Shown here one piece after another: positions 3 to 63,447 of a DNA stretch of 64,000 nt; the first letter of the stretch is position 1, and every line of letters begins with the position of its first letter. The notes below the pieces were generated by a model. The model ran no database searches. It worked only from the letters and a program-made list of their open reading frames with translations, and was not told the origin of the DNA. The position numbers were made by a program, and so were the translations under genes. This DNA is from a virus, in IMG/VR virus record IMGVR_UViG_3300028864_000014, positions 62,001 through 126,000 of that record. One strand, given 5' to 3'.

Positions 3-236
3 AAAAATAATAGTGGTAAAATAGTAGCATCAAAAAAATCAGGAGTTGGTGTTACTTATATGATAAAGTATAATAATATACCTGAGTATTTAAAAAAATA
101 TTTTGTTAGTTTTAACTTTACAAATGACGCAGAACATAAATATATGAGAGCAATAAAAAGACATAACACAATTGAATTCATAGGATCAAAAGAAGAATGT
201 GAAATTAAAATATCAACAAAAAAATATAATTTATAA
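3..236 (+). CDS. C-terminal part of a small hypothetical protein (5' end outside window)
   Basis: The frame is open from the first bases of the window and closes at TAA 234-236, giving at least 77 residues. No known domain is recognised. The protein ends in KKYNL, the K-[FY]-N-[IL] ending shared with eleven other small proteins here. Its stop overlaps the next start (TAATG), so the two are probably cotranslated. Function unknown. Confidence 0.7.
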   Translation, partial: KNNSGKIVASKKSGVGVTYMIKYNNIPEYLKKYFVSFNFTNDAEHKYMRAIKRHNTIEFIGSKEECEIKISTKKYNL

Positions 237-679
237 TGATAATACATTTCAAGGAATTTATAACAGAAGGATTTTTAAATATATTCAATAAAAAAAAAGA
301 ATCTATTGAAAATGATAATGAGAAAATTCTCAGAATGATTTATGATAAAGAGCCAGAACTACAAAAGTATAAATTTGAAGTAGATTCTTGGAATAGAAGA
401 GGAGATTTATTACCAAGAGAAAAAAGAAATGATGAAATAATAACCAACCTAAATGGAATTGATGTTATTTTTGATACAGTAACAAAAATTTACGAAATTT
501 CTATTGCGCCTAGATACGATTTTGATTTTTCTCTTAGAATACTCAATTTAATTGATGAAAATTATGACACACTTTCTCATAATTTATACAAATCTAGTAT
601 ATCAACAAAATCAATATTATTCACAGAAATGAGTGAAGAAAGAAAATTTGAATTAGACACAAAAAAATATAATCTATAA
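236..679 (+). CDS. Small hypothetical protein with capsid-targeting-like N-terminus and KKYNL end
   Basis: This 147-residue protein has no recognised enzymatic domain. Its start, MIIHFKEFITEG, looks like the T4 capsid-targeting peptide, and ITE|G fits the (I/L)-x-E|(A/G/S) cleavage consensus of the T4 prohead protease gp21. Its end, KKYNL, is the shared C-terminal tetrapeptide motif. The body is charged and lacks membrane segments. It overlaps the upstream gene by one base and is followed after one base by the next gene. Packaging into the head is inferred only from the peptide. Confidence 0.75.
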   Translation: MIIHFKEFITEGFLNIFNKKKESIENDNEKILRMIYDKEPELQKYKFEVDSWNRRGDLLPREKRNDEIITNLNGIDVIFDTVTKIYEISIAPRYDFDFSLRILNLIDENYDTLSHNLYKSSISTKSILFTEMSEERKFELDTKKYNL

Positions 680-680
680 G

Positions 681-1073
681 ATGAAAAAATTTGATGAATT
701 TATAAAAGAAGATGCATTTGCAACTATGGGAAACACAGGAGGAATGGGTGCTATTGTAGCTGCTCAACCAGGAAGTATTCCAGGATCTCAAGGAACTACT
801 GGTTCTGGTGATATTAGTCAGCCTCTTGCTACATATTCTAAACCCGTAGTAAATTTAAAAAGACATAAAAAATCTAAGAAAAATAAAATGAGAAAAGTAG
901 AATCATTTGATATTTTCATGAAAGAAGAAAATGAGATAATAGACAATTTCACTGCAAGATATTATGATAATTATGATGATGAAGAAGAACCAAGTTATGA
1001 AGTAAATATTCAAGATATTGAAGAAAATAATATTAAAAAAATTCAAATGTACGAAAAAGATGAAAATAAATAA
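681..1073 (+). CDS. CTS-like protein with Gly/Ser-rich linker and a second internal CTS-like peptide
   Basis: The 130-residue product starts MKKFDEFIKEDA, a capsid-targeting-like peptide. A Gly/Ser/Pro-rich stretch follows (about residues 17-50), then a basic patch RHKKSKKNK. Met70 then begins a second copy of the motif (MRKVESFDIFMKEE), and the C-terminus is acidic. This looks like a fusion of two CTS-bearing proteins, or one gene with an in-frame internal start at 888. No enzymatic function is recognised. It overlaps the following broken gene by 14 bases. Confidence 0.7.
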   Translation: MKKFDEFIKEDAFATMGNTGGMGAIVAAQPGSIPGSQGTTGSGDISQPLATYSKPVVNLKRHKKSKKNKMRKVESFDIFMKEENEIIDNFTARYYDNYDDEEEPSYEVNIQDIEENNIKKIQMYEKDENK

Positions 1074-1356
1074 ATTTAGCCAACTAAATGAATCTAATGA
1101 AATACCATATAATAAATCATTAGGATATGATATGTCAATGATAGATTATCTAGCCAAAAGTTTTCAATTATGGACAGATGCATAAGATTTATCACCAAAA
1201 TCCGCTGATGAATATAGCATAGATGAATTAACAGATGTTCAGTATGATTATATAAAAAAATTCATAATTTTATGGGATTCAACTGAAGAATTTGAGAGAG
1301 ATTATAATATAAATGGAATTAAATTAGAACAAAAAGCAAAAAAATTTAATATATAA
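1060..1356 (+). pseudogene. Small CTS/KFNI protein interrupted by an in-frame TAA
   Basis: One frame runs from ATG 1060 to TAA 1354-1356 (98 codons) with a single in-frame TAA at 1183-1185, codon 42. The part before the stop begins MKINKFSQLNES, a CTS-like start. The part after it reads on without further stops and ends KKFNI, the shared C-terminal motif, so both halves look like one gene. Nonsense mutation, sequencing error or readthrough are all possible. TAA ends most neighbouring genes, so general recoding of TAA is unlikely. Confidence 0.65.
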
Positions 1357-1367
1357 AATAAGAAATA

Positions 1368-1913
1368 ATGGATAGTATAAGATCAAAATATCAGAAATAT
1401 GGAGTTAAAAATTTCTATGAATGGAATTTTGATCAATATAATAATCCGCATGAGCCAATAATACAAAAATCAATAAAATTTGTAAATGATAATTGGAATA
1501 TAAATTTCAACAAATCATTAGATTTGGCTGCAGGTAAAGGAGAAATTTCTAAAACATTAATAAATCTTGGATATAAAAACATTGATGCTTGTGATGCATA
1601 TTCATGTGATTACTACAAAACAAACGACAACACAAAATGTGAAAAAATATCATTTGATGATATCATAAACGGTTCATTAGATAATAAAAAATATAATATC
1701 ATAATTTGCAGTTTTGCACTACACTTATTAGAGCAATCAAAATTACCAACATTTCTATATAAATTAACTCAAATTAGTAACCAATTACTAATATTATCAC
1801 CTCACAAAAGACCAGAAATAAGAGAAGAATGGGGCTGGAAACTTCAAAATGAAATAGTTATAGAAAAAGTCAGAACTAGACTATTTGATAATATTTTTTC
1901 TAAACAATCTTAA
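1368..1913 (+). CDS. Class I SAM-dependent methyltransferase-like protein
   Basis: The 181-residue protein carries a motif I-like glycine loop LDLAAGKGE (residues 51-59), followed by an acidic strand end (IDACDAY) and a motif IV-like strand (NIIICSFALHLL). Together these fit a Rossmann-fold SAM methyltransferase, and the HLL segment resembles the UbiE/Methyltransf_11 group. The substrate cannot be told. No DNA-methylase catalytic motif (DPPY or PC) is visible, so a small-molecule or protein substrate is as likely as nucleic acid. It is followed by an AT-rich 40-base gap and dnaJ. Confidence 0.75.
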   Translation: MDSIRSKYQKYGVKNFYEWNFDQYNNPHEPIIQKSIKFVNDNWNINFNKSLDLAAGKGEISKTLINLGYKNIDACDAYSCDYYKTNDNTKCEKISFDDIINGSLDNKKYNIIICSFALHLLEQSKLPTFLYKLTQISNQLLILSPHKRPEIREEWGWKLQNEIVIEKVRTRLFDNIFSKQS

Positions 1914-1953
1914 TAATTTTTTATATAACATTATAAAATAAAATTATAAAATA

Positions 1954-2961
1954 ATGGACTATAAAAAGGATTATTATAAAGAATTAGGATTAAATAAAGA
2001 TTCATCTGAGGAAGAAATAAAAAAGAAATATCGAAAGCTTGCAATAAAATATCATCCTGACAAAAATCAAGGAGATAAAGAAAGCGAGGAAAAATTCAAA
2101 TCAGTATCAGAAGCTTACGAAGTATTATCTGATAATTCAAAAAAACAAGAATATGACACGCGTAGTCCAAATGGAAATTCATTTTCACAATTTGGTGGGC
2201 AAGAATCAAGTTTTTTTGGAGGAGGCATGAATTCTAGTTTTTTCAATCAATTCTTTGGTGGAAATAGTCCATTTGGAAATTTTTCCGGTAAAGAAGAATT
2301 TTCTGAAAACTTAGACATAAACATAAATGTAGATATAGATTTTAAACAGATATATAAAAATGATAAAATTAAAGTAAAATACAACAAATTAATTAGTTGT
2401 GATGACTGCAAAGGTACTGGATTTGATAAATCTGGACATTCAGATGATTGTGATGTATGTGATGGTACAGGAATAAATAATGGAAGAGATTGTGAGTACT
2501 GTCAAGGTACTGGAAAAATTCATAGTGATAAATGCAAAAAATGTAATGGGGAAAAAGTAATATTAAAAGAAACTGAAATAGAATTACAAAACATATCGGA
2601 AATTAGATCCTCCAATAGAAATTTGCAATATGGTTATGGTAGTCAATCAAAATACTATAAAGATAGAGTAGGAAGCTTAATTTTAAATATAAATATTATA
2701 AATAGAAGTAAATGCAGCATAATAAATAATTATGATTTAATTTCAGAATTAGATATACATTTTCAAGATGCCATTGATGGAAGCAAAATATATTATACTC
2801 ATGTTGATGATACTAAATTAGAAATTAAATTACCTAATAAAACCAAGGACAAAGATACAATAAAAATAAAAGAAAAAGGTTTATTAAGACAGAATGGCAA
2901 AAGAGCAGATTTATATCTGAAATTAAATATTGTCATAGACTATGACAAATTAAATATATAA
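1954..2961 (+). CDS. dnaJ: DnaJ-type (Hsp40) co-chaperone
   Basis: The protein stimulates the ATPase of a DnaK partner and delivers clients. No dnaK is in the window, so it presumably works with host DnaK. The J domain has YHPDK with HPD at residues 34-36. A Gly/Phe/Ser-rich linker covers about 72-112. Four zinc-binding CxxC pairs follow (C149/C152, C166/C169, C180/C183, C194/C197), the first three with the usual GTG and the last degraded to CNGEK. The C-terminal beta-sandwich region is shorter than in cellular DnaJ (335 versus about 375 residues). Its end, KLNI, weakly resembles the local KFNI ending. Confidence 0.93.
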
Positions 2962-13723: not shown

Positions 13724-14626
13724 CTAATCAAATTTTTTCTTCAATTTTATATCTATATTACTCAAATATCCAGTTTTTATATGAACGTCATTTTCATCAT
13801 CATCAATAATATCATCAGTATCATATTCAAAATCAAAAATAAATAAGTCATAATCTTCTCTTTCTTTTGGTAATTTATCAAAATCATTATTCTTACTCAA
13901 ATACATATCATCATAATTCCAACCAACTACCAATTTATCTAATTCTTTATTTTTAATATTTAGTGGTTGATTATCTTCTATCATACCAGAATATTTAGAT
14001 GATTTATCTTTTTTGTATCCTCTCCAATATAAACAATAACCATGATTTATTTTTTTAATCGGATAATTAATAATACTATTAATCCATTCATCATCCTTTA
14101 TAATTTTAAATCCATCTTGAACATATATTTCTCCAAATAGTTCTTTTATTTTAGGTATGAATTTTTTAAGAAATTCAGGAATTGTCAATCTAACTCCATT
14201 ATAATATCCACCATCACTATCAAACCATCCAGAGTCTTTCAATCTTTCTATTTTTGATTTAATTATTATAAATTTTTTAGTATACTTACTAATATTTTTT
14301 ATTTTTTGAGTTTTTATCAATTCTTCATTTTCGTGAAACCATATTCGTTTTCTTGATCCATAACTTCCTACTTCAATTGAAGGGAATGCAAAAGGAGAAA
14401 TCTTATAATTATCACTTATTTTATCTCCATCTAATTCTAACTTAAATAAGGTAACAGGAGAATCACCAACATAATGATTCATACTTTTATTTCTTGTAGT
14501 TGAAATATTTGTAAATTTATAAGATGATATTGAATTTGTATTTAATATATATTCACACTTACTCAAATCAAATATATGATATAAACTACCCAATTGCTTA
14601 CCTTCATAACATTTTAAATACTTCAT
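13724..14626 (-). CDS. CTS-bearing protein with ADP-ribosyltransferase-like fold
   Basis: The 300-residue protein starts MKYLKCYEG, a capsid-targeting-like peptide (CYE|G fits gp21-type cleavage). The next about 100 residues (SLYHIFDLSKCEYIL, ISTTRN, TLFKLELDGDKISDNYKISPF, then HENEELIKT) follow a pattern seen in phage proteins of ART-like fold: a YH strand, an S/T-R-N strand, an LDGDKLS..YKI segment and an E-rich strand. The remaining half is unrecognised. T4 packages the ADP-ribosyltransferase Alt in its head, so an injected modifier is an attractive inference, but catalytic activity is not demonstrable from sequence. Confidence 0.6.
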   Translation of the reverse strand: MKYLKCYEGKQLGSLYHIFDLSKCEYILNTNSISSYKFTNISTTRNKSMNHYVGDSPVTLFKLELDGDKISDNYKISPFAFPSIEVGSYGSRKRIWFHENEELIKTQKIKNISKYTKKFIIIKSKIERLKDSGWFDSDGGYYNGVRLTIPEFLKKFIPKIKELFGEIYVQDGFKIIKDDEWINSIINYPIKKINHGYCLYWRGYKKDKSSKYSGMIEDNQPLNIKNKELDKLVVGWNYDDMYLSKNNDFDKLPKEREDYDLFIFDFEYDTDDIIDDDENDVHIKTGYLSNIDIKLKKKFD

Positions 14627-14648: not shown

Positions 14649-15074
14649 TTAAATATTGAATTTGCCTGCTATTGAATATAACTCAATATCAGATTCTTTC
14701 AAATTACGAATAATTTCAATCGCATCATTATAATATTTAACATCAAATGTAACAGAAAAATAATCCCAATAATTATCAATATGAGATTTATATGGCTCAA
14801 TTATAATATTATTTTCTATCAATTTATTTATAATTAAATCTGAAATAAATTCTATTTTAGGATCAAAATCATATGCAGTGAAACCTATACAAATTTTATT
14901 TTTATTTTTATTAATACTTATATAATTTTGATTTTTTTTATAATCATTACCTTCAAATTTAATTTCATTTTTTGATATGAAACAAGAAAAGTTATTATTT
15001 AATTTAAGACGCAAAGTATTTAATAATTCTGCTGAAAAAAATTTACTTTCGAATATTTTAAAATTTTTAATCAT
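14649..15074 (-). CDS. Small ORFan with CTS-like start and KFNI end
   Basis: ATG 15074 (MIKNFKIFESKFF) is chosen. A longer reading from 15152 would overlap the upstream gene and add an unrelated hydrophobic leader. The 141-residue product has the CTS-like start (IFE|S) and ends GKFNI, encoded AAA-TTC-AAT-ATT, so the motif is kept although the codons differ from other copies. No domain is recognised. It sits between two ART-like genes. Confidence 0.7.
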   Translation of the reverse strand: MIKNFKIFESKFFSAELLNTLRLKLNNNFSCFISKNEIKFEGNDYKKNQNYISINKNKNKICIGFTAYDFDPKIEFISDLIINKLIENNIIIEPYKSHIDNYWDYFSVTFDVKYYNDAIEIIRNLKESDIELYSIAGKFNI

Positions 15075-15084: not shown

Positions 15085-15438
15085 TTATTCGTAAATTGAT
15101 TGTCCATGTTTATCATTATGTAAATCATGAATAGCAACAAAGTAATCACCACTAATATACAATGAATCCAATTTTATATACATATTAAAAATTACAGGAG
15201 TTTTAGATCCTGTCATCAAACTATATCTTCTGGCAATATCTATATCAGGAGAAAACCAAGTTCCATTTTTAAATTTACCTGTTCTTATTATTTTTTTTGA
15301 ATTCTCTCTATTTGTACCATGATACAATAAAATATATACATCACCGTCGATATACATTTTTTCAATTCCTCTATCAGTAACATTTTTTAAGTATTCATCT
15401 GACAAATGATTCTCATATATTTTAAATTCTATTATCAT
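15085..15438 (-). CDS. CTS-bearing ADP-ribosyltransferase-like small protein
   Basis: The 117-residue protein starts MIIEFKIYENH (CTS-like). The body contains LYHGTNRENSKKIIRTG, then GTWFSPDIDIARRYS, then a PVIFNMYIKLDSL strand. This is the ART-fold order: HGT with the conserved His, a W-F-[ST]-x-D turn, and A-x-x-Y with the conserved Tyr. The third catalytic position (Glu/Gln) is not clear near FVAIHDLH. It is first in a minus-strand run with two other CTS-bearing genes. It probably binds NAD or a related ligand, and injection with the DNA is inferred. Confidence 0.65.
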   Translation of the reverse strand: MIIEFKIYENHLSDEYLKNVTDRGIEKMYIDGDVYILLYHGTNRENSKKIIRTGKFKNGTWFSPDIDIARRYSLMTGSKTPVIFNMYIKLDSLYISGDYFVAIHDLHNDKHGQSIYE

Positions 15439-22796: not shown

Positions 22797-23144
22797 ATGA
22801 AGCACTTAAGATTATTTGAGAATGAGTTATCGTATAAATATAAAGTAGGTGATTATGTATTAATTAACTATGATACTAAATCTAAAACATTATCAAAGTT
22901 GAAGGATTTTGTAAATATTCATATAGGAAAAATACTGTTTATTGACGATAAAAGTTTAATTATTCAATATAATAATCCACCAGATAAATTGAATCATTTT
23001 TTTTCTGATAAAGTAGTAGGCAATAAAAATATTAAAAATTCTGTGTTTTTTTGGAATAAAATAAATACAATAAGAAGATTGGCAACAGAAGATGAAATAT
23101 CAGAATATGAAGTAGTTAAAAATACAAATAAATTTAATATATGA
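22797..23144 (+). CDS. CTS-like / SH3-like / KFNI small protein
   Basis: The 115-residue protein starts MKHLRLFENE (CTS-like) and continues with YKYKVGDYVLINY, an SH3-like or KOW-like first strand pair. It ends NKFNI. Its stop overlaps the next start (ATATGA). It is a paralogue of the next gene in its first 30 residues and last 5, with an unrelated middle. Confidence 0.7.
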   Translation: MKHLRLFENELSYKYKVGDYVLINYDTKSKTLSKLKDFVNIHIGKILFIDDKSLIIQYNNPPDKLNHFFSDKVVGNKNIKNSVFFWNKINTIRRLATEDEISEYEVVKNTNKFNI

Positions 23145-23482
23145 AACATTTGAAATTATATGAATCTAATCTCATACCTAAATATAAAGTAGGTGATTAT
23201 GTTCATTTAGGTATGGAGCCAGATTTTACTTATGATGATTGCTTAGGACAAATACTTAAAATAGATAAAAACGGATTCATAAAAGAACCTGAAGAAACAG
23301 ATTCAGATAAAAATCATGATTATTATATTAATACATTAAATCCTTACCCATATAAAGTTAAAATATTAGATGGTAAATTCGATGCAGAAGAAGGTTTAAT
23401 AGATAGATATCTGAATAAAGATGAAATAGAATATTTTGAGTATTTATTAAAGAATAATGATACTAAAAAATTTAATATATGA
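23141..23482 (+). CDS. CTS-like / SH3-like / KKFNI small protein, paralogue of upstream gene
   Basis: The 113-residue protein starts MKHLKLYESN (LYE|S fits a gp21-type site). It then has PKYKVGDYVHLG and a second KVKILDGKF strand, suggesting a small SH3-like barrel. It ends KKFNI and overlaps the next gene by four bases. Function unknown. Confidence 0.7.
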   Translation: MKHLKLYESNLIPKYKVGDYVHLGMEPDFTYDDCLGQILKIDKNGFIKEPEETDSDKNHDYYINTLNPYPYKVKILDGKFDAEEGLIDRYLNKDEIEYFEYLLKNNDTKKFNI

Positions 23483-23740: not shown

Positions 23741-23771
23741 AAAAAAACTCAGATTAAATCTGAGTTTTTTT
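23741..23771. terminator. Bidirectional rho-independent terminator
   Basis: A 14-bp stem (A7-CTCAGAT with complement, TAA loop) lies between convergent genes. Confidence 0.85.
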
Positions 23772-24244
23772 TATCTACCATATCTATCACCAGGATATTT
23801 CTTATCAATTTCTTTCCACATTTCAAATGAACGTTTAAATAACTCAAATTTATTTTCAATGAAATCAGTTACCCCGTCATCTGTTGTACTATCTATATTA
23901 AAATGTTCAATAACATTTGATGGTAAATTCTCAAGATTGTTTTTTATTCCTAAAAAATAATATTTACTTTTTTCAGTTAAATAATAATTTATAGATTCAA
24001 TTAATTTTTTAATATAATCTGATTCACCATAATCCGATAATGTATCACCCATTAGACTTATTTTTCTTTCATCATTTTTCTCTCTTTCCACTGTATATGC
24101 ATCACTTGTTATTCCTTTTTGACTAGGATTTTTATCAAAGTCTTCATCTGAAATTGGTTTTTTATGTTCGCCATCAATTTTTCCACCATATGGAAATTTT
24201 ATATATTCTTTTATATATTCTCCATAGTCTACTATTTTTTTCAT
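23771..24244 (-). CDS. Hypothetical protein with CTS-like start
   Basis: The 157-residue protein starts MKKIVDYGEYIKEYI, a looser CTS-like peptide (YIKE|Y). A polar, Asp/Glu/Lys-rich body follows and a helical C-terminal half (NKFELFKRSFEMWKEID). Not recognised. It is the last gene of the minus-strand run starting at 26343. Confidence 0.6.
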   Translation of the reverse strand: MKKIVDYGEYIKEYIKFPYGGKIDGEHKKPISDEDFDKNPSQKGITSDAYTVEREKNDERKISLMGDTLSDYGESDYIKKLIESINYYLTEKSKYYFLGIKNNLENLPSNVIEHFNIDSTTDDGVTDFIENKFELFKRSFEMWKEIDKKYPGDRYGR

Positions 24245-24262: not shown

Positions 24263-24607
24263 TTATATATTAAATTTATTAGTTGATATTAATAAATCCA
24301 AATCATCTCTTGTTATTATTGACCAATTATCCTTATTATTCCAATCATAATCTGGATATTTGTCTAATATATAATCTAATCTACGCTCTGCTTGTTTTGT
24401 TGTAAAAAAACAAGCTGTGTTATTAATATTATAAATTGTATTTGAATTAAATTTATTAATATCAATAGAAGATATTACATCACTAGATTCATATGGAAGA
24501 TTCATCAATATCAATTTATCACCTTTAGTTGGTCTATTCAAAATTAATAAATATTTTTGTTTATTTTCTTCTTTCTTTTTAAATATGTTAAATTTTTCTA
24601 CTATCAT
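24263..24607 (-). CDS. CTS/KFNI small protein, paralogue of 24610-24948
   Basis: The 114-residue protein starts MIVEKFNIFKKKEE and ends STNKFNI. It aligns with the upstream gene over its whole length (YLLILNRPTKGD versus YFLILHRPNEGD; RRLDYILDKYPDYDWNNKDNW versus DRLDNILHKYSDSQWTNRNNW), so the pair arose by tandem duplication. The central ILxRPxxGD segment is the best-kept part. Function unknown. Confidence 0.72.
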   Translation of the reverse strand: MIVEKFNIFKKKEENKQKYLLILNRPTKGDKLILMNLPYESSDVISSIDINKFNSNTIYNINNTACFFTTKQAERRLDYILDKYPDYDWNNKDNWSIITRDDLDLLISTNKFNI

Positions 24608-24609: not shown

Positions 24610-24948
24610 TTATAAATTAAATTTATTTGTAGTGAATAAAAAATTCAACTCGTCAAAAGTTTTTATCATCCAATTATTTCTATTAGTCCATTGAGAATCA
24701 CTATATTTATGTAGTATATTATCTAATCTATCATTGGCTAATTCAATTGTAGGAAAACTTTCAATATTATTATTTTTCCCTTTTAGAATATTTATATTAC
24801 TTGAATTTATTTCATCAGTAGTAATAAAATCCTCAATTCCGTGAGTAAGTTTATATAATATAGAATAATCTCCTTCATTTGGTCTGTGTAAAATCAAGAA
24901 ATATTTTTCTTCTTTGTTTTTAAATATATTAAATCTTTCTATTATCAC
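24610..24948 (-). CDS. CTS/KFNL small protein, paralogue of 24263-24607
   Basis: The 112-residue protein starts MIIERFNIFKNKEE and ends TTNKFNL. It shares the ILxRPxxGD and RLDxILxKYxDxxWxNxxNW segments with the next gene. No known family is recognised. The two genes are two bases apart. Confidence 0.72.
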   Translation of the reverse strand: MIIERFNIFKNKEEKYFLILHRPNEGDYSILYKLTHGIEDFITTDEINSSNINILKGKNNNIESFPTIELANDRLDNILHKYSDSQWTNRNNWMIKTFDELNFLFTTNKFNL

Positions 24949-24963: not shown

Positions 24964-25395
24964 TTATAAATTAAATTTCATAGTAGATTTTATCCATGTT
25001 GGAGTATAATTTACCGCATTTAGAAATAAATAGAATGAAAAAATGAAATATGAACTCTTCCAATCCATTGATGTTTTATTCGTATATTCTTCTATTTCAT
25101 AATATAATTTAGGAGTATTTTCTATTTTTGTTATTATAGAATTTAATGTATATTTTTTTATTTCTCTTTGAGTTTTTTTATCTTTCTTTTTATCCTCTGT
25201 TTTCCAGACATCAGGATGTTTATACATAAATATTAGCATAGAAAATTCATCATAACAAGAAATTGGTATATTTCTATATGTGTAATTATCAGTTATTTTT
25301 TCACCATATTTATTCTTATATATTTTTTCATAATTATTTATAAAAATTTCAGTATCAGAGCTAATTTTTATGACTATATTATTTTTTTCTATCAT
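24964..25395 (-). CDS. Small hypothetical protein ending MKFNL
   Basis: The 143-residue protein lacks the CTS-like start (MIEKNNIVIKISSD) but ends TMKFNL, so the terminal motifs occur independently. A hydrophobic-aromatic stretch near residues 113-125 (SSYFIFSFYLFLNAV) could be a membrane segment or buried helix. Not recognised. Confidence 0.65.
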   Translation of the reverse strand: MIEKNNIVIKISSDTEIFINNYEKIYKNKYGEKITDNYTYRNIPISCYDEFSMLIFMYKHPDVWKTEDKKKDKKTQREIKKYTLNSIITKIENTPKLYYEIEEYTNKTSMDWKSSYFIFSFYLFLNAVNYTPTWIKSTMKFNL

Positions 25396-25486: not shown

Positions 25487-25924
25487 TTACAAGTTAAATT
25501 TGTTCGCATTTCTTATTAAATTCAATTCTTCAATAATAATTTTTTGTTTTTCTGTTATATTTCCATAAATAGTAAATGGTGAATTGACATTAATTCTATA
25601 TTCAATATTAGGATAATTTTTTAATATTAATGATAATATCACAAATTCTTTTTCTTTGTGTTGTAGTGTTCCTTTATATCCAACAGTACATTCATGAACT
25701 TTATCAATAATACCTGTACATCCTTCTACAATTGGTATGAATTCAAATAAACTATTATCATAACCATAATTAAAATTAAATTTAACTACTTTACCAGGAG
25801 CTAACAAATCTGTAATAAATTTTTTTATTTTATTCTGGTTTCCATTATAATAAATCATCAAATCATTTAAAATTAATGTTGTTTCATTTTCTACATTCTC
25901 AAATACTTTAAAATTTGTTATCAT
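25487..25924 (-). CDS. CTS/KFNL small protein, paralogue of 25921-26343
   Basis: The 145-residue protein starts MITNFKVFENVEN and ends ANKFNL, encoded AAA-TTT-AAC-TTG. It aligns with the upstream gene (TLILNDLMIYYNGNQNKIKKFI versus TIILNDVIDYFDGDDDSIRNFI; NSPFTIYGNI versus NSPTTIYGYV). Function unknown. The two genes overlap by four bases. Confidence 0.72.
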   Translation of the reverse strand: MITNFKVFENVENETTLILNDLMIYYNGNQNKIKKFITDLLAPGKVVKFNFNYGYDNSLFEFIPIVEGCTGIIDKVHECTVGYKGTLQHKEKEFVILSLILKNYPNIEYRINVNSPFTIYGNITEKQKIIIEELNLIRNANKFNL

Positions 25925-26343
25925 ATATTAAATTTTTTTGCTTCTCTTTTTATATTTATATCATTAACAATTTTTTTAATTTCATCAGGAACATAGCCAT
26001 AAATAGTAGTTGGAGAATTTGTGTCTACATCATGATCATATTTTATTCTTTTTAATATTATTGTTAAATATATATAATGAAATTCATTACTAAATCCATA
26101 TGATCTACCTCGTATTACACCTTTGTGATGTTTATTTGAATGCATAAAATTGGTTACTCCATTAATCATCATGGTACATTTTTTACAATCAAATTCAACT
26201 ATATTGTTATCATTATAATCAAGTAATTTAAATATGAAATTTCTTATTGAGTCATCATCACCATCGAAATAATCTATTACGTCATTTAAAATTATTGTAA
26301 TCTTATCTTCTGAGTTCTCAAATATTTTGAATTCTGTTATCAT
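25921..26343 (-). CDS. CTS/KKFNI small protein, paralogue of 25487-25924
   Basis: ATG 26343 (MITEFKIFENSED) is chosen over the Met nine codons upstream because it restores the CTS-like start found in the paralogue. The product is 140 residues and ends AKKFNI. It has a CKKC pair near residue 60. No known domain. It is the first gene of a six-gene minus-strand run and is divergent from the recombination nuclease gene. Confidence 0.72.
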   Translation of the reverse strand: MITEFKIFENSEDKITIILNDVIDYFDGDDDSIRNFIFKLLDYNDNNIVEFDCKKCTMMINGVTNFMHSNKHHKGVIRGRSYGFSNEFHYIYLTIILKRIKYDHDVDTNSPTTIYGYVPDEIKKIVNDINIKREAKKFNI

Positions 26344-31146: not shown

Positions 31147-31407
31147 TTAATATATTTTCCAATTTTTGCTATTAACTTCATCTCTTTTTTTAGGATAATA
31201 TAAATTGCAGCAGCCATCAGAACTAACTTTGGATTTAACTTTTACATTTTTACAATAGTCATGCTCATAAAAAGAGCACTCATTACAACGAAATTTACTT
31301 TTCATTAATTCCATATATGATACATCTGGAGATTTCAGACGTTTTATGTTTTCATTATCATAATTTTCATTATCATAATTTTCAAATACTATAATATTAT
31401 TCATCAT
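31147..31407 (-). CDS. Small cysteine-rich, probably zinc-binding protein
   Basis: The 86-residue protein (or from the second Met, 31404) has CNECSFYEHDYCKN followed by DGCCNLYYP, enough cysteines for one zinc or an Fe-S site. The start MNNIIVFENYDNE resembles the CTS-like peptides and contains a short YDNEN duplication. Function unknown. It is divergent from the ClpS gene. Confidence 0.65.
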   Translation of the reverse strand: MMNNIIVFENYDNENYDNENIKRLKSPDVSYMELMKSKFRCNECSFYEHDYCKNVKVKSKVSSDGCCNLYYPKKRDEVNSKNWKIY

Positions 31408-31693: not shown

Positions 31694-31987
31694 ATGGAGA
31701 AAACAAAAACAAAATCATTAGATGAAATTTTATCAGAAAATGGAATTTCTACTAATACTGAAGAAGAATTTAAATTGATATTATGGAATGATGATGTAAA
31801 TTCATTTGAATGGGTTATCACATGCTTAATGGCTTATTTAAAATTTCCACCTAAAAAAGCAGAAGCATCAGCCTATAATGTACATCTTATTGGTAAAGAT
31901 GTTATTAAAACTGGTTCAAGAGAAACATTAGAGCCTTATAAAAAATTATTAGAAGAGAGAGGATTATCTCTCACAATAGAACAATAG
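31694..31987 (+). CDS. clpS: ClpS adaptor protein
   Basis: The 97-residue protein carries the ClpS core: LWNDDVNSFEWVI (Asn-Asp-Asp 32-34, which contacts substrate alpha-amino groups), then YLKFPPKKAEASAYNVHLIGKDVI and the final GLSLTIEQ strand. ClpS recognises N-degrons and presents them to ClpA/ClpC. The N-terminal 20 residues form the usual flexible arm. It is followed by a membrane protein and a Clp ATPase, so adaptor and unfoldase are encoded together. Confidence 0.9.
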   Translation: MEKTKTKSLDEILSENGISTNTEEEFKLILWNDDVNSFEWVITCLMAYLKFPPKKAEASAYNVHLIGKDVIKTGSRETLEPYKKLLEERGLSLTIEQ

Positions 31988-31988
31988 A

Positions 31989-32267
31989 ATGAAAAAATTT
32001 ACAATAGATTATATATTATATATTTATAAAACTTTTATATTAAAAAATAAAAGCGGAGATATTTATAAAAAATGGGCGAAATCATTAATGAGATTATTAG
32101 AATATACATACGATTTGTATATTTGGATTTTTGCCTTGATGTTATTTTTACCAGTTTTATTAATTTCTGTTACAATTGGTAAAAAAATAAAAATGAAAAA
32201 ATTTCAATTAATGAAAGCGTTCATTAAATACACTAACGATTACAATAACAATAATAAAATTAATTAA
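31989..32267 (+). CDS. Small protein with one transmembrane segment
   Basis: The 92-residue protein has one strong hydrophobic segment (about residues 42-63: LYIWIFALMLFLPVLLISVTIG) flanked by Lys-rich sides. The start MKKFTIDYILYIYKTFIL may be a second, amphipathic helix. It lies one base after clpS and nine before clpC. A link to the Clp machine at the membrane is inferred from context only. A holin-like role cannot be excluded. Confidence 0.65.
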   Translation: MKKFTIDYILYIYKTFILKNKSGDIYKKWAKSLMRLLEYTYDLYIWIFALMLFLPVLLISVTIGKKIKMKKFQLMKAFIKYTNDYNNNNKIN

Positions 32268-32276
32268 TTAAAGCCT

Positions 32277-34811
32277 ATGAATTACTCAAAAGAAGTAGAA
32301 GAAGTCATTAAAAAAAGTAAGGACATTGCTATTAAGATTAAGTCTAAATCAATCAGACCTGAACATTTATTTCTATCAATGATAGATGATGAATATTCTG
32401 ATGCATCTCAAATTATGAGGGATCTTAATCTAAATATTGATGCCATTAAGAAAACAATATCTGAGTGGTCTTCTGTGATGCAAGAACAAATTGGAGTAAA
32501 TTCACTCAGAAAAAATGCTTCAATTCCACTGGAATTAGAAACTGAAAAAATTCTAAAAGATTCTGTTGTTTTTGCGAAATCAATGGATTCAGATGAAGTT
32601 TGTATTGAACATGTTTTTTATTCAATATTGGATAATAGCAATAATCTTGTTTCAGAGTTATTTAATAAATCACCTGAAATTTTAAGAAGTTTGAAAAATA
32701 GATTGAAGAATGAAGAAGAAGAACTTAATATTAATGATGAATTAGAAAATGTTAATAATATGGACGAAGAACAAGAAGAAGTAACAGGAAGTTCAAAAAG
32801 TAAGTCAAAAACTAAATTGATTGATCAATTTGGTACAAATCTTACAAATCTCGCAAAAGAAGGAAAACTTGATCCAGTAGTTGGACGTGCAGATGAAATT
32901 AAAAGAATTACACAAATTTTATCCAGACGTAAGAAAAACAATCCTGTATTAGTTGGAGAACCTGGTGTAGGTAAATCAGCAATTGTTGAAGGATTAGCTC
33001 AATTAATCGTAGATGGACTTGTTCCTGAAAATTTACAAAACAAGAAAGTTATCACTCTTGATATGGGTTCATTAGTAGCAGGAACTAAATATCGTGGTGA
33101 ATTTGAGCAACGATTAAGAGGTATTGTAAAAGAGATGGAAGAAAATCCTGATATCATTCTATTTATAGATGAAATTCACACTATTATTGGAGCTGGAGGT
33201 GCTCAAGGATCACTTGATGCTTCTAATATGTTGAAACCAGGATTGGCAAGAGGAACATTCAGATGTATTGGTGCTACTACTCTTGAAGAATATCGTAAAT
33301 ATATTGAAAAAGATGCAGCATTAGAACGTAGATTTCAGAAAGTTGTTGTAGAAGCAACTAGCAAATCAGAAACATTAGAAATTCTTAAGAATATCAAAAA
33401 ACAATATGAAGATCATCACAAAGTTACTTATACTGATGATGCATTAGAAGCTTGTGTCAATTTATCTGACAAATATATATCAGAAAAATTCTTTCCTGAT
33501 AAAGCAATTGATGTTCTAGATGAGGCTGGTGCTATGGTTCATGTGAATGGTACAAGTGCTATTCCTGAAAAAATTGTTGAGCTTAGTAAGAAAATAAAAA
33601 TATCTATAGTAGAAAAACTTGATTGTATTTCTTCACAAAAATATGAACTTGCTGCTGATCATAGAGATAATGAAAAACAATGGAAAGCTGAACTTGAAAG
33701 TGAAAGAGAAGTATGGAGTCAAGAGCACTCAGATAATCGTGCAATGGTAACAGAAAAAGATATTGCTGAGGTTGTCGCTCTTATGACAAAAATTCCAGTA
33801 GATAATGTTTCTATTGATGAAAACAATAAGCTTAAATTTATGGCTGATAAAGTAAAAACTATTGTAATTGGACAAAACGAAGCTGTTGATAAGATAGTTC
33901 AATCAGTCAAGAGATCAAGAGTTGGAATTAATAGTCATGATAAGCCAGTTGGATCATTTATTTTCTCTGGTCCTACAGGAGTAGGTAAAACCTATCTTGC
34001 AAAAATTATGGCAAAAGAATTATTTGGTTCTGAAGATGCGATGATTAGAATTGATATGAGTGAATTTATGGAAAAATTCTCCGTATCTAGATTAGTAGGA
34101 GCACCTCCAGGTTATGTTGGATATGAAGATGGAGGTAAATTAACTGAAGCAGTAAGACGTAAGCCTTATTCTATTATTCTTCTTGATGAAATAGAAAAAG
34201 CTCATCCTGATGTTCAAAATATTCTACTTCAAGTATTGGATGATGGGGTATTAACTGATAGTAATGGCCGTAAAGTGGATTTTAAAAATACTATCATTGT
34301 TATGACAACAAATGCAGGTTCAAGAAAATTGAAAGATTTTGGAACTGGTATTGGATTTGGACTTTCTAAAAACAATCAAGATTCTAAAAATTCTGTTCTT
34401 AAAAAAGAATTAGAAAAAGTGTTTAGTCCAGAATTTTTAAATCGTGTTGATGAAGTTATAAATTTCAATTCATTAAGTAAAGAAAATATTTGTGGTATTA
34501 TTGATGTTGAATGTAAATCATTAATCTCAAATCTTAAAGAAAAAGGATATGATGTAATTATATCTCAATCACTTAAAGATTATTTATTTGAAAATGGTTA
34601 TGATGAAAACTATGGTGCAAGACCATTGAAGAGAGCTATTCAGAGTAATATTGAAGATAAACTTACTGATGCGATTATTGATCAAGAAATCTCAGTTGGT
34701 GATACATTATCATTAATATACGACAAAGATAGTTCATCTGTAAAAATTTCAAAATTATCATCTAAAGAAATTAAAAGTGGTAATATTTTAACTGAAAATA
34801 CCACAGTTTAA
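32277..34811 (+). CDS. clpC: ClpC/ClpA-type AAA+ unfoldase
   Basis: The 844-residue protein has a Clp N-domain duplicate (1-about 145), AAA1 with GEPGVGKSA (about 226-234) and IDEIHT, and a middle stretch with charged coiled coil (about 440-500). AAA2 follows with GPTGVGKTY (about 562-570), LLDEIEKAH and a sensor NRVDE. The loop [11 protein letters not shown] (about 680-690) is the ClpP-binding IGF/IGL loop and is close to Bacteroidota ClpC. The M-domain is short, as in ClpC rather than ClpB. No clpP is in the window, so host ClpP is the likely partner. Acquisition from a Bacteroidota host is probable. Confidence 0.93.
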
Positions 34812-41193: not shown

Positions 41194-41583
41194 ATGAACT
41201 ATTTAAAAACATTTGAAAAATATGATAACTCTGATATTGATGATATTTTAAATCAGATTTCAAAATTCATAAAATCTAATTTGCGAAATCTATGGATATC
41301 TAATGATGAAATAAAAATATATATTAGAAAATCTAAAAGAAATTTTAAAGGTAATATGTATGATTTTTTTGATTTTGCTAGTATAGATGTAACTGAACCA
41401 AATAGTGGATTGTTCACAAAAATACTTAAAAAATTTGAAGAAGAATACCCAGATAAAAAAATATTTATTGAATCTGTATTAACTGAAAGATTTGCAGATT
41501 ATATTAAAAATGTTTTAAAATTTGAAGAAGAAACTCCAAATTATAGCAACAATTTTTATAAAATAAAAAGTAATATAATATAA
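41194..41583 (+). CDS. CTS-bearing GNAT-like protein
   Basis: The 129-residue protein starts MNYLKTFEKYD, a CTS-like peptide. The body resembles a small GNAT-like fold found in phage genomes: FFDFASIDVTEPNSGLFTKILKKFEEEYP, then IFIESVLTERFADYIKNVLKFEE. Usual GNATs have R/Q-x-x-G-x-G/A here; only N-S-G-L-F remains, so acetyl-CoA binding is uncertain. It overlaps the next gene start by one base and sits among virion genes. Confidence 0.62.
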   Translation: MNYLKTFEKYDNSDIDDILNQISKFIKSNLRNLWISNDEIKIYIRKSKRNFKGNMYDFFDFASIDVTEPNSGLFTKILKKFEEEYPDKKIFIESVLTERFADYIKNVLKFEEETPNYSNNFYKIKSNII

Positions 41584-43792: not shown

Positions 43793-44302
43793 TTATTTTT
43801 CAAGAACATAAGTTTTTATTTCCTCTTTAAATTTATCATTCCATTTTTTTAAATATTCATCATATAAATTTTTATATGGTTGTAAAGTTTTGATATAAGG
43901 AAAATTTTTTCTCATATCTCTCAATAGTTTTGTTGATGCCTCAAAATTTGAAGGTTTCAGTGCTGCAATTAAAGCTGATCTTAACTCATCAATTGATATA
44001 TAATCTTTTTCTACTGTATAATCAACATTTTCAAATGTTCCTTCTGGTTTATATAAATCTAAATCTACTTTAAATTTATTATACCATTTTTTCAAAAATG
44101 CCATATAAATTTCTTTGTATGGAGATTCTGTTTTAATATAAGGATGATCATTTTTAATACTTCTAAGAAGTTTTACTGATGCCTCAAAATTATTAATCTG
44201 AAATATAGAATCTAACTGTTCTTCTAATTCTTCTGTTGATAAATATTCTTTTTGAATTATATTATCAGCATTATTCTCATTGAATGTTTTTAATTTTCTC
44301 AT
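43793..44302 (-). CDS. CTS-bearing protein with two copies of a helical domain
   Basis: The 169-residue protein starts MRKLKTFNENNAD and holds two repeats of a domain of about 70 residues (QKEYLSTEELEEQLDSIFQ...NFEASVKLLRSIKNDHPYIKTESPYKEIY; then EKDYISIDELRSALIAALKPSNFEASTKLLRDMRKNFPYIKT). The neighbouring gene 44445-44705 has one copy. Both carry the same CTS-like start, which indicates duplication within one family. Function unknown. Confidence 0.7.
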   Translation of the reverse strand: MRKLKTFNENNADNIIQKEYLSTEELEEQLDSIFQINNFEASVKLLRSIKNDHPYIKTESPYKEIYMAFLKKWYNKFKVDLDLYKPEGTFENVDYTVEKDYISIDELRSALIAALKPSNFEASTKLLRDMRKNFPYIKTLQPYKNLYDEYLKKWNDKFKEEIKTYVLEK

Positions 44303-44444: not shown

Positions 44445-44705
44445 TTAATGTTCATATGAATTTATATCTTCTATAAATTTATCATGCCATTTATTTGTAT
44501 ATTCATTCCATAATTCTGAATATGGAGATTCAGTTTTTACATAAGGATATTCTTCTTTAATTCTTCTCAGAATATTCAAAGATTCTTCAAAATTGTTTGT
44601 TTGTATCACAGAGTCCAATTCGTCTCTTAGTTCTTCAATTGATACATATTCTTTTTGTAATATATCATCAGAAATGTTTTCATTAAATGTTTTTAATTTT
44701 CTCAT
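44445..44705 (-). CDS. CTS-bearing protein, single copy of the 43793-44302 domain
   Basis: The 86-residue protein starts MRKLKTFNENISDDILQ, almost identical to the start of the 43793-44302 product. It has one domain (VSIEELRDELDSVIQTNNFEESLNILRRIKEEYPYVKTESPY). Function unknown. It lies 25 bases downstream of the NusG-like gene, with a late-type promoter element in between. Confidence 0.7.
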   Translation of the reverse strand: MRKLKTFNENISDDILQKEYVSIEELRDELDSVIQTNNFEESLNILRRIKEEYPYVKTESPYSELWNEYTNKWHDKFIEDINSYEH

Positions 44706-45331: not shown

Positions 45332-45802
45332 TTAAAATCTTCTAATAATAGTTTTTCTTTTTTGAGGTTCTATTGCAGGTTGTGAATAAGGTTCAAAAGA
45401 TTTATTGTCATTATATTCATCAGGAAAAAATTTATCATTGTCTGTATTATGATGTCTTTTTTTAGGCTCAAAGAAAGAATCATTACTCTCTCCTTTTTCT
45501 TCATCTCTCTTTAATCTTTGATTTATAAATTCTCTAACATAATTGTGTGCATCTTTCAAATCATCTTTCTTTTTATTTCTCAATCTTACACTTTCTCCAT
45601 CTTTATTTTTTTTGAAAATTTTACATATAAAAAAACCGCCTTTTTTCTGTATTCTTGCGAAGTAATATGGCTCAGAATTTCCTGATTTATATTTTATAAT
45701 TCCACCAAATACTGTTGGATCATATTTAGCTTTGCCACTAGTGAATAATTTATCATCTATAATATTGTCTTTCCAAGTTTCAAATGTTTTAATATTTTTC
45801 AT
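45332..45802 (-). CDS. CTS-bearing hypothetical protein with charged tail
   Basis: The 156-residue protein starts MKNIKTFETWKDN. A beta-rich first half (GGIIKYKSGNSEPYYFARIQKKGGFFICKIF) is followed by a long polar, Lys/Glu/His-rich tail (KKRHHNTDNDKFF) that is probably disordered. Not recognised. Confidence 0.62.
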   Translation of the reverse strand: MKNIKTFETWKDNIIDDKLFTSGKAKYDPTVFGGIIKYKSGNSEPYYFARIQKKGGFFICKIFKKNKDGESVRLRNKKKDDLKDAHNYVREFINQRLKRDEEKGESNDSFFEPKKRHHNTDNDKFFPDEYNDNKSFEPYSQPAIEPQKRKTIIRRF

Positions 45803-54022: not shown

Positions 54023-54427
54023 TTATTCTTCTTTTTCTTCTTCTAAGAATTCAATCTCATCATCATCATCAATATTTATCAATTTTATATTATCATCATA
54101 TACTACAAATTCTTTCAATTCTTCTATCATATCATAAAAATCTGATTCATCTAAACTATCAAGAAGGTCTGCCAATTCATCTTTTGATGGTTCATAATTA
54201 TCTTCATCTTTATATCCATCTAAACTATTTATACCTTGATTATCTAGAATTTCTAATATCTGATCAATAGCATCATGTTTATATTCCCAAAATGATTCAG
54301 TATTGTCATTCACTCTAACTTCCCATTTATTTTCTATTTCTTCATCATTAGTGGTATTTTCTATTTCCTCGTCATCAAGAATATTTTCTTTTATATATTC
54401 AAATTCATTAAATTTTTTAAGAGCCAT
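54023..54427 (-). CDS. Highly acidic small protein
   Basis: The 134-residue protein is extremely acidic (Asp/Glu stretches near residues 16-30, 60-100 and at the end). The start MALKKFNEFEYIKEN resembles the CTS-like peptides. Such acidity occurs in DNA-mimic inhibitors and in scaffold proteins; neither can be chosen from sequence. A late-type TATATATAC element lies upstream. Confidence 0.62.
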   Translation of the reverse strand: MALKKFNEFEYIKENILDDEEIENTTNDEEIENKWEVRVNDNTESFWEYKHDAIDQILEILDNQGINSLDGYKDEDNYEPSKDELADLLDSLDESDFYDMIEELKEFVVYDDNIKLINIDDDDEIEFLEEEKEE

Positions 54428-60840: not shown

Positions 60841-60891
60841 TTGATATAAAAATAAATAATTTTTTTATATCAATTATTTTCATTATATTTG
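60839..60891 (+). promoter_or_regulatory. Fused terminator and TATATTTG promoter
   Basis: A 14-bp stem (AATTGATATAAAAA with TTTTTATATCAATT, 60839-60875) overlaps the stop of the upstream gene. TATATTTG (60884-60891) follows 8 bases after the stem. ATG 60901 is only 9 bases after the -7 box, so the transcript would be nearly leaderless. Confidence 0.7.
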
Positions 60892-60900
60892 TAAAAAAAT

Positions 60901-61101: not shown

Positions 61102-61103
61102 AT

Positions 61104-61361: not shown

Positions 61362-61363
61362 TC

Positions 61364-62251
61364 ATGAGTCTAAAAGCATATGACGGTATGATGACCAGAA
61401 ATGGTTTAGCATACATACAAGAAGAAATCTTAAAAAGAATTGATAGATTTGAAGATGCATCACAAAATGAATTAGCAAAATGTTATGCTAAAGATATTAT
61501 ATTACATGTAGATGAAAAATGTGACATTATTCATCAAATGGAATATTTATCAATTAATGATAGTGAAGAATTAAAAAATAAAATAAAAGAAATTAGTATA
61601 AAAGAAGATACTACTTTGATGTCTTATTTATTTCAATCAGGTAAAATATTATCAAAAAGTCAATATAAAAATGATTTTATGGTTGATCTTAGTTTATCAA
61701 TTGATTGTAGAGATGATAAAATACTAATTTTTCCAAATATAAATGTAGGCGAGCATAGAACAATCCTTTTAGAATTTCTAAATGATTGGTATTGTCAAAA
61801 CCAATCTGATCCAGATGAAAATGTAAAAGAAGATGAATGGGATGAAAGAGAAAAAGATTGGTATGTATTTAATGAACATAAAGGATTATCAATGAAGATT
61901 ATGATATTTGATACAAATAATTATTCTAAAAATTTAAATGAACATTTTAGAGGTGAAATATTATATCAAAAAATACTCGAAAATATTCCTTCAGATGATA
62001 TTAGAAAAAGGAAAATAGTAACTAATATTTTAATTAGTGAGAAATTAAAAGATAATGATGATTATTCAACTGTTTGGAATATATTGGGAGAGTTAAAGAA
62101 AGATGACAACTCAGAAATAACTGAATATATAAACTCACATGATATTCAATTATTTAAAATTGATAAAGAATTTCTTGATACTGAATTATTAAAACCTAAA
62201 ACAGAACTTGATGAGTATATAAAAACTCATAATATTGAATTAAAAAAATAA
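61364..62251 (+). CDS. Conserved hypothetical protein
   Basis: The 295-residue protein starts MSLKAYDGMMTRNGLAYIQEEILKRI, a conserved-looking phage N-terminus, and has a central acidic stretch (SDPDENVKEDEWDEREKDWYVFNEHKG). Two C-terminal helical repeats end in SHDIQLFKI and THNIELKK. Function unknown. It is followed by a terminator. Confidence 0.65.
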   Translation: MSLKAYDGMMTRNGLAYIQEEILKRIDRFEDASQNELAKCYAKDIILHVDEKCDIIHQMEYLSINDSEELKNKIKEISIKEDTTLMSYLFQSGKILSKSQYKNDFMVDLSLSIDCRDDKILIFPNINVGEHRTILLEFLNDWYCQNQSDPDENVKEDEWDEREKDWYVFNEHKGLSMKIMIFDTNNYSKNLNEHFRGEILYQKILENIPSDDIRKRKIVTNILISEKLKDNDDYSTVWNILGELKKDDNSEITEYINSHDIQLFKIDKEFLDTELLKPKTELDEYIKTHNIELKK

Positions 62252-62257
62252 CAATTT

Positions 62258-62286
62258 AAATCCATCTATTTAAGATGGATTTTTTT
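62258..62286 (+). terminator. Rho-independent terminator
   Basis: An AAATCCATCT stem with complement (ATTTA loop) and T-run. The T-run is shared with the TATATATAA element that follows. Confidence 0.85.
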
Positions 62287-62294
62287 ATATATAA
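62281..62294 (+). promoter_or_regulatory. Candidate late promoter (T6-ATATATAA)
   Basis: TTTTTTATATATAA overlaps the terminator T-run and lies 24 bases before ATG 62318. Confidence 0.45.
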
Positions 62295-62317
62295 TAATAA
62301 ATAAAAAATAATTTATT

Positions 62318-62647
62318 ATGACAGTATATAGTTTTGATGAATATTATGGCAAGAAATATCAAGTAGATAGATATTATGATAATATGATGAGAGTAGTTGA
62401 TGATTATGTAAATACTAATGATGAATTTAGAAAAAACCACAAAGTTCAAAATTCACCTTATTTTGTTATAAAATCAGATAGTATACATAAAAGTTCACTT
62501 AAACCAGGAGGATATAATATAAATTACACTTTGAAAAAAAATTATCAAAAGGGAACAATAAATATAACTGATGAAGAATATAATGATTTAGTTGAATATA
62601 TGAAAGATACAGAATTATATAAATCTACAAAAAAATTCAATTTATAA
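62318..62647 (+). CDS. Small hypothetical protein ending KKFNL
   Basis: The 109-residue protein starts MTVYSFDEYYGKKYQVDRYYD, Tyr/Asp-rich, and ends STKKFNL (AAA-TTC-AAT-TTA). Its stop overlaps the next start by one base. Not recognised. Confidence 0.68.
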   Translation: MTVYSFDEYYGKKYQVDRYYDNMMRVVDDYVNTNDEFRKNHKVQNSPYFVIKSDSIHKSSLKPGGYNINYTLKKNYQKGTINITDEEYNDLVEYMKDTELYKSTKKFNL

Positions 62648-63447
62648 TGAGCAAAAAAGTCAAAGATTGGAATTCATTTATTTTAGAACAACAGAGTATA
62701 GAAAACTCTATATATTCAATATTTGATATTGATGATAATTTACTTATCATGAATACTCCTTTACACTTTCAACATTTTGAAAATGGTAAATGGATAAATA
62801 AAGATATATCAATTCAAGATTTTTCTAAAATAAGACTTGAATATCCAGATAATTATATTGATAATAATGAATGGAAATCAGACACTAAATATACATTTTC
62901 TGAATTTGGAGACAACGGTCCAAGATTAGATAATTCACTTGTTGATGATATTAAAAAATCAATAAAGAATAAAAATTTTGGTCCATCATGGGAGTCATTT
63001 TTAACAACTCTAAAAGAAGGTAGATTATTTGCTATCATTACCACAAGAGGACATGAACCTAATACTATACATTCATCAGTAAGATATATAATAGATAATG
63101 TATTAGACATAGATGATAAAAATATAATGATAACAAATATAGAAAAATATAATAAATTATTCAAATTTGAATCAACTGATAAAATAGAAAATTATTTAGA
63201 CTGCTGTTATTTTATTGGATTAATGTCTCAAGCATTCAAAGATGAGTTTTATTTTACTCCAACAATGAAAACAAGACATTTAGCTATACAAGATGCAACT
63301 AACAAATTTTCAAATTACGTTAAAGAAATTTCTCCTGGTACAATAGATTCATTCATTAGTAATGAGAAATCATTAGACTTTCCTGAATTTTATAGCATTT
63401 CTAATTCTGTCACCAATAAAACAGAACAAGTAAAAGTTAAAATATAA
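62647..63447 (+). CDS. HAD-fold protein with CTS-like N-terminus
   Basis: The 266-residue protein starts MSKKVKDWNSFILEQQ, in which WNSFILE|Q resembles the capsid-targeting peptide. HAD motif I follows as FDIDDNLL (Asp27, Asp29). Motif II is AIITTRG near 132-138, and the helical segments between form a cap. No further motif is assigned with certainty. It may be a packaged phosphatase or nucleotidase. It is the last gene before a terminator. Confidence 0.68.
   Translation: MSKKVKDWNSFILEQQSIENSIYSIFDIDDNLLIMNTPLHFQHFENGKWINKDISIQDFSKIRLEYPDNYIDNNEWKSDTKYTFSEFGDNGPRLDNSLVDDIKKSIKNKNFGPSWESFLTTLKEGRLFAIITTRGHEPNTIHSSVRYIIDNVLDIDDKNIMITNIEKYNKLFKFESTDKIENYLDCCYFIGLMSQAFKDEFYFTPTMKTRHLAIQDATNKFSNYVKEISPGTIDSFISNEKSLDFPEFYSISNSVTNKTEQVKVKI

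Follow-up and report, generated by a model that had tools for sequence, protein, structure and literature searches.

Many small proteins encoded in a 64,000-nucleotide stretch of viral DNA (positions 62001-126000 of the 235,318-base IMG/VR record IMGVR_UViG_3300028864_000014; hereafter the window) start with a short peptide, which occurs in two forms, T and S. We consider it likely that these N-terminal tags are capsid-targeting propeptides which mimic the scaffold of a T4-type head assembly and are carried by accessory proteins of a Mahaphage-like huge phage. The T form shares its pattern with the published capsid-targeting sequence (CTS) of T4 and with the repeat unit of a protease-scaffold protein found in relatives, and one tagged gene of the window, 681 (genes are named by their start coordinate in the window, e.g. 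681, 22797), has a segment homologous to the N-arm of the major capsid protein.

Two forms of an N-terminal tag and their frequency

The T form has the pattern M-x-x-[FY]-x-x-[FY]-[IL]-x-E-[SAN] (logo of 58 sequences: M-K-K-[YF]-N-E-[FY]-I-N-E-[SAN]). In the T4 leader, targeting depends on residues 4 and 7 and processing on residues 8 and 10 (PMC9026906); in the T form all four are present: positions 4 and 7 are hydrophobic, position 8 is Ile or Leu and position 10 is Glu. The S form, MK[YH][LI]-K-x-[FY]-E-N (logo M-K-[YH]-[LI]-K-T-[FY]-E-N), is the commoner one in this phage and has just positions 4 and 7. An aromatic residue was found at offset +3 in 34 of 107 S tags, compared with 6-16 at other offsets, and a few S tags are full S-T hybrids, e.g. 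MKHLKQYESFLNE.

Open reading frames were called mechanically, with the first ATG blindly chosen as start codon, and the N-termini were searched with a strict two-form regular expression; for the null, residues 2-16 of each of these proteins were shuffled 1000 times. Tagged starts were found in 13 of the 99 genes of the window (null 0.72, maximum 5) and in 27 of 186 genes in 100 kb of outside stretches of the same record (null 1.6, maximum 6). For the whole sample of 164 kb this amounts to 40 of 285 genes, about one in seven, compared with a shuffled mean of 2.4 and at most 10. Since the expression was composed after the window had been read, other genomes are the fairer test, and tags were indeed found in the relatives G015 (20 of 163 genes, shuffle maximum 7), G009 (11 of 77, maximum 5), G001 (25 of 203, maximum 6) and LR756501 (47 of 584, maximum 13), a share of 8-14% in these four genomes. 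That the tags arose by chance or composition, as Lys-, Phe- and Asn-rich starts of an AT-rich genome, is hardly conceivable: the genome is indeed 76% A+T (window G+C 23.5%), but this explanation was refuted by the shuffles, by the AT-rich control phages, which had almost none (Tenacibaculum phages PTm1, 0/113, and pT24, 2/72; Staphylococcus phage K, 0/49; T4-like Campylobacter phage CP220, 3/53), and by internal stretches of the same proteins, in which the motif occurred about twice per 285. In CP220, which is T4-like, two adjoining paralogs (L106:35925-37275) start with the CTS-like leader MKFSDFLEEQA.

A preliminary description of the window had reported the motif at the starts of about 19 small proteins, had suggested a count against shuffled proteomes and had named an equal frequency in unrelated AT-rich phages, together with absence of a prohead protease, among the findings that would speak against it. 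The counts above bear it out, and the motif is both real and more widespread than claimed. Nearly all of the listed starts were confirmed; 14649 and 25921 need internal ATGs (15074 and 26343), 24263 and 24610 lack the Glu, and the motif of 1060 is weak. The repertoire had been counted too low, and the scaffold match and a C-terminal tag had been overlooked.

All 18 true ortholog pairs that were compared keep the tag and differ at other positions of the leader; a further pair consists of gene 681 and the capsid protein itself. Synonymous codons within the tags track genome usage, the last codon excepted, which argues that selection acts on the peptide.

The tag motif in scaffold and capsid proteins

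The Mahaphage-clade genome LR756501 (735 kb; the largest members of the clade are predicted to infect Bacteroidetes, PMC7162821) encodes a portal, a protease-scaffold fusion and a T4-like capsid protein, and its capsid protein as search query led to 52 loci. At these loci, nearly all complete copies of the protease-scaffold contain [YFWLIV]-x-x-[FYW]-[ILVM]-x-E 9-16 times, for the most part in a tandem array with a period of 14 residues, as in YSEYIAENLDKSID, and each unit holds the T motif. The scaffold proteins have 13-14 unit matches each, while shuffling of one protein gave a mean of 0.5 and a maximum of 5. The unit logo, N-I-D-Y-S-E-Y-I-A-E-N-L, agrees with the T tag at positions 4, 7, 8 and 10, and the tag would thus be a copy of one scaffold unit. 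The protease itself starts with M-K-x-V-L-I-[IV]-E-[NH] or a near variant in 46 of 52 copies, a spacing that resembles the S tag. A gp21-family prohead protease was found in G009, in LR756501 and at about 50 related loci. LR756501 also has a short paralog of the prohead-protease domain without scaffold (L016:11314-11850), the C-terminus of which is DPYGEENWSE. Large genes of a recurring family (MILSNKIEIRINISN.., ending YDSGNLKF..) lie between head genes at L046:3723-5360, L038:3569-5311 and other loci and are possibly mobile endonucleases.

Gene 681 contains the N-arm of the major capsid protein behind the tag MKKFDEFIKE (ATMGNTGGMGAIVAAQPGSIPG aligned to STLGNLNGMGAVQAAQPASTPG). In this gene and its homologs the tag Glu is in register with the Glu of MNE|N, the presumed maturation site of the capsid protein. 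Relatives retain gene 681 with identities of 87, 60 and about 50%, and it was the sole match when the record was searched with the LR756501 capsid protein. The T4 capsid protein gp23 has the same motif, FGSFLTE, at residues 59-65, which we take to be directly in front of its mature N-terminus, i.e. at the cleavage position.

The record is connected to these head genes by G009 (61 kb), its closest head-bearing relative. Within the stretches read, 22 reciprocal-best pairs were found between G009 and the record, mostly in the first 20 kb of G009, and nine of these are tagged genes with 65-92% identity; the other end of G009 contains the portal, protease-scaffold and capsid genes. The SbcCD marker was on none of the head-bearing contigs tested, and the link was obtained via the synteny with G009. 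The SbcCD-like protein is 44% identical between the record and LR756501, and the capsid protein of G009 is related to that of LR756501; both relationships point to a Mahaphage-like phage, of the clade with 634-735 kb huge phages, the host of which is probably a member of the Bacteroidetes.

The tagged proteins and a C-terminal tag

A second tag, K-[FY]-N-[IL]-stop, with a longer form [ND]-[TSA]-x-K-[FY]-N-[IL]-stop, was found at the C-terminus of 31 of the 285 sampled genes, where shuffling predicts 0.12. With a slightly looser pattern it was present in 19 of 30 S-tagged, 4 of 12 T-tagged and 10 of 243 other genes (p=4e-15), and most of these ten have worn N-terminal tags. Its codons vary, save for the base just ahead of the stop, where overlaps of the ATGA type account for part of the bias. 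The C-terminal tag appears not to have been described previously. It is also present in G015, G009 and G005, while its place in G001 is taken by K-[LM]-G-[LI]-x, also on an array of genes without N-terminal tags; tandem small paralogs ending in K-[LM]-G-L-[LIF] and lacking the N-terminal tag are located at L082:2856-12841 of G001. In LR756501 neither K-F-N nor the G001-type tag was found. There, DPYGEE-x-W occurs in 44 of 584 genes (L004, L016-L023; e.g. L021:26611), often at the extreme C-terminus, and is enriched among N-tagged genes (15 of 57 vs 29 of 527).

The tagged genes of the window are the following.

236 (236-679, plus strand): T form MIIHFKEFITE at 236-268; C-terminal tag KYNL (665-676)
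681 (681-1073, plus strand): T form MKKFDEFIKE at 681-710
681, N-arm segment (711-833, plus strand): homologous to the major capsid N-arm
681, second tag-like copy (888-929, plus strand): at an internal Met, MRKVESFDIFMKEE
1060 (1060-1185, plus strand): 41-codon open reading frame with weak motif MKINKFSQLNES
13724 (13724-14626, minus strand): S tag MKYLKCYEG; ART-like (LYHIFDLSKCEYIL..STTRNKS)
14649 (14649-15074, minus strand, from internal ATG): S tag MIKNFKIFESK; C-terminal tag KFNI (14652-14663)
15085 (15085-15438, minus strand): S tag MIIEFKIYENH; small ART-PolyVal-like protein
22797 (22797-23144, plus strand): S tag MKHLRLFEN; VGDYV domain; C-terminal tag KFNI (23130-23141)
23141 (23141-23482, plus strand): S tag MKHLKLYES; VGDYV domain; C-terminal tag KFNI (23468-23479)
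23771 (23771-24244, minus strand): T form MKKIVDYGEYIKE (..YGEYIKE)
24263 (24263-24607, minus strand): degenerate MIVEKFNIFK; C-terminal tag KFNI (24266-24277)
24610 (24610-24948, minus strand): degenerate MIIERFNIFK; C-terminal tag KFNL (24613-24624)
24964 (24964-25395, minus strand): N-terminal tag not clear; C-terminal tag KFNL (24967-24978); the G015 ortholog (L006:7114) has the S tag MITNFKIFEK
25487 (25487-25924, minus strand): S tag MITNFKVFEN; C-terminal tag KFNL (25490-25501)
25921 (25921-26343, minus strand, from internal ATG): S tag MITEFKIFEN; C-terminal tag KFNI (25924-25935)
31147 (31147-31407, minus strand): S-like MMNNIIVFEN
41194 (41194-41583, plus strand): S tag MNYLKTFEK
43793 (43793-44302, minus strand): S-like MRKLKTFNEN, reading ..FNE
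44445 (44445-44705, minus strand): S-like MRKLKTFNEN, reading ..FNE; paralog of 43793
45332 (45332-45802, minus strand): S tag MKNIKTFET
54023 (54023-54427, minus strand): mixed tag MALKKFNEFEYIKE, kept in the G015 ortholog as MGLKKFDEFEYINE
62318 (62318-62647, plus strand): degenerate start MTVYSFDEYY; C-terminal tag KFNL (62633-62644)
62647 (62647-63447, plus strand): T form MSKKVKDWNSFILE (..WNSFILE); HAD-like by eye (DIDDNLL..ITTRG)

The tagged genes are accessory: none of 42 tagged genes has a homolog among the sampled LR756501 genes, compared with 29 of 243 untagged genes, and the recognisable core genes of the window (SbcCD, ClpA, ClpS, thymidine kinase, sirtuin, peptide deformylase, NusG) are untagged. 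The ClpS (Pfam 4e-16) adjoins the ClpA-like ATPase at 31694-34811, an arrangement kept at L006 and L008, and the two may form an N-degron or C-degron pathway. Elsewhere in this phage, at least seven small paralogs (MSKEELSDWFWNKFN..), mostly untagged, form an array at L015:12585-16501 and L014:7260.

Grouped by sequence, the 42 tagged proteins of the sampled record make up 31 clusters, a shared leader on otherwise unrelated proteins. The earlier statement that their bodies are unrelated therefore mostly holds, except for seven which share one small domain with the motif VGDYV. This domain is present in multiple copies behind tags in the window (22797-23482) and at L011, L012:13932, L013:15688 and L006:4653-6008. 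In the structure model of 22797 the domain looks like a small alpha-beta fold, and confidence is low for residues 1-12 and 112-115, as would fit two end tags; Foldseek gave only weak, ribosomal-protein-like matches (best E 0.01, TM 0.38). Few domains were identified among the tagged proteins of this phage, i.e. ART-PolyVal-like, NT5C, ankyrin repeats and NUDIX, and tagged proteins of LR756501 contain a methyltransferase and a DeoC-family aldolase. The folds proposed in the preliminary description fared unequally. The ADP-ribosyltransferase (ART)-like fold is supported by a Pfam match of 15085 that stayed below threshold (ART-PolyVal, 2.6e-5; PF18760, 25.4 bits vs a cut-off of 31.2). A HAD-like fold was recovered in a tagged gene that lies beyond the window (NT5C, 2e-11), while Pfam support above cut-off was not found for 62647, and the Pfam search found no GNAT-like fold. 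Matches to Baculo_LEF-2, ALS_ss_C and SopD were below cut-off and were taken as chance. The AlphaFold model of 13724 (predicted local distance difference test, pLDDT, 35) was too low in confidence for interpretation. Homologs of this ART-like protein in head-bearing relatives (L039, L105) bear T-form tags and 13724 an S tag; one family with either tag links the S and T forms.

Probable capsid targeting and the alternatives

For the T form, capsid targeting is well supported by sequence comparison, i.e. by the fit to T4 logic, the match to the scaffold units and the register of gene 681 with the maturation site. For the S form the case is indirect; that it works like the T form is less certain and the most doubtful step. 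The earlier proposal of capsid targeting is thus upheld for T and only indirectly for S. We infer the following course from scaffold binding to injection. The N-terminal tag would copy one scaffold unit (Y-x-x-Y-I-A-E, every 14 residues), and the tagged protein would enter the prohead core by packing with the scaffold. The scaffold-fused prohead protease would then release it by a cut after the tag Glu, and the released protein would remain in the filled head and be delivered along with the DNA, while the C-terminal K-[FY]-N-[IL] would probably act as a second sorting signal on the same cargo. Since the peptide copies the scaffold repeat, the tagged proteins are probably loaded into the head and delivered to the next cell, and the parallel with Alt and the internal proteins of T4 makes it plausible that they are injected effectors.

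Several observations weigh against this reading. The S form has Glu instead of Ile/Leu at position 8 (logo) and no Glu at 10, and it has no exact counterpart within the scaffold. G001 has about 20 C-tagged proteins without N-terminal tag, so that the two tags need not occur together. No virion proteomics of this clade was found. Finally, protease, full capsid, portal and terminase genes were not found in the 235-kb record: the protease, capsid and terminase proteins of PTm1 and the protease of LR756501 as queries gave no match, and the Pfam models S77, Gp23 and Portal_T4 gave none either, although no positive control gave a signal and absence is not proven. The record appears to be a genome fragment, and the link to head genes rests on relatives; the gp21-like protease that the preliminary description had wanted to see was found in close relatives, on a contig syntenic with the record, but not in the record itself.

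The T form could be true capsid targeting while S and the C-terminal tag are another signal, on proteins that never enter the virion and are, for example, placed at a site inside the infected cell. The different S logo (L/I at 4, K at 5, E at 8), the many S members without an [IL]-x-E protease site and the C-terminal tag of G001 and G009, which mainly accompanies S and not T, would fit such a division, but S and T genes alternate within the same operons (L011:8402-11883), the C-terminal tag is common to both in this phage, the tag switches inside one ART-like family and S-T hybrids exist; we therefore regard it as unlikely. Less likely still is that the C-terminal tag, to which this alternative is confined, marks proteins for degradation by a protease, perhaps with the phage ClpS/ClpA, and not for packaging. 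Hydrophobic C-terminal peptides are common degrons, ClpS and ClpA are encoded in the window and ClpA-like genes are present in G001, G002 and LR756501. However, LR756501 has its ClpA-like gene yet no K-F-N tag, and a degron leaves unexplained why the C-terminal tag is placed on N-tagged proteins.

Very improbable is that the tags are DNA-level elements, such as translation-start or recombination sequences for cassette swaps, with the peptides as a by-product. Tagged genes do stand in tandem with short overlaps, and the codon preceding the stop ends in A in 45 of 54 C-tag genes compared with 210 of 394 others, but a DNA-level origin was rejected by the codon-usage test, as tag codons vary synonymously like the rest of the genome; the upstream DNA contains no common block, orthologs keep the tag as a peptide while non-core residues change, and the scaffold units match at the protein level. 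Beyond capsid targeting by the N-terminal tag, it is conceivable, and we put it forward tentatively, that the scaffold-repeat-like N-terminal peptide and a lineage-specific C-terminal peptide jointly sort dozens of accessory proteins into the head, the latter being read by some head component (K-[FY]-N-[IL] here, K-[LM]-G-[LI]-x in G001); DPYGEE-x-W would then perhaps be the counterpart in the 735-kb phage.

The CTS of T4 Ip1-3 and Alt is likewise a leader of about 10 residues, in which positions 4 and 7 are hydrophobic or aromatic, position 8 is Ile/Leu and position 10 is Glu. It too sits on small accessory proteins with otherwise unrelated bodies, and the T4 cargo includes an ADP-ribosyltransferase (Alt), as the putative cargo here includes ART-like proteins. 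The gp23 sequence before the cleavage point has the same motif as the T tag. Unlike in the scaffold of the relatives, tandem CTS-like units were not found in T4 gp22, and unlike T4 gp21, the protease of the relatives forms one protein with the scaffold and its 14-residue repeats. A C-terminal partner peptide and the S form were not found described for T4. A short C-terminal peptide, the cargo-loading peptide, also loads cargo into the HK97-fold shell of encapsulins, to which the C-terminal tag is compared for its way of working only. The N-terminal LIE-9 site of gp21 (PMC9026906) resembles the VLI[VI]E start of the relatives' protease. The repertoire, about 40 in 164 kb, compares with a handful in T4 and at least 10 reported in related T-even phages (PMC12373910). 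The phiKZ-like giant phages SPN3US and 201phi2-1 also have many propeptide-bearing head proteins, cut after Glu, but these propeptides are mostly long (>100 residues in several; A-x-E in SPN3US) and lack the shared leader of 8-13 residues seen here (PMC5694885). No report of such tags in huge phages was found in the literature, most subscription papers being outside the search. The kind of system is known from T4; what the searchable papers do not describe is its scale here, its match to the scaffold, the S form and the C-terminal tag.

Little is known of what huge phages carry in their heads, as these proteins are small, evolve fast and have no likeness among database entries. A packaging tag that is recognisable from sequence would make hundreds of hypothetical proteins testable candidates for injected anti-defence or takeover factors. 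That the tag equals one repeat of the scaffold hints at a mechanism for CTS targeting, and the C-terminal tags pose a problem of their own that direct tests can now address.

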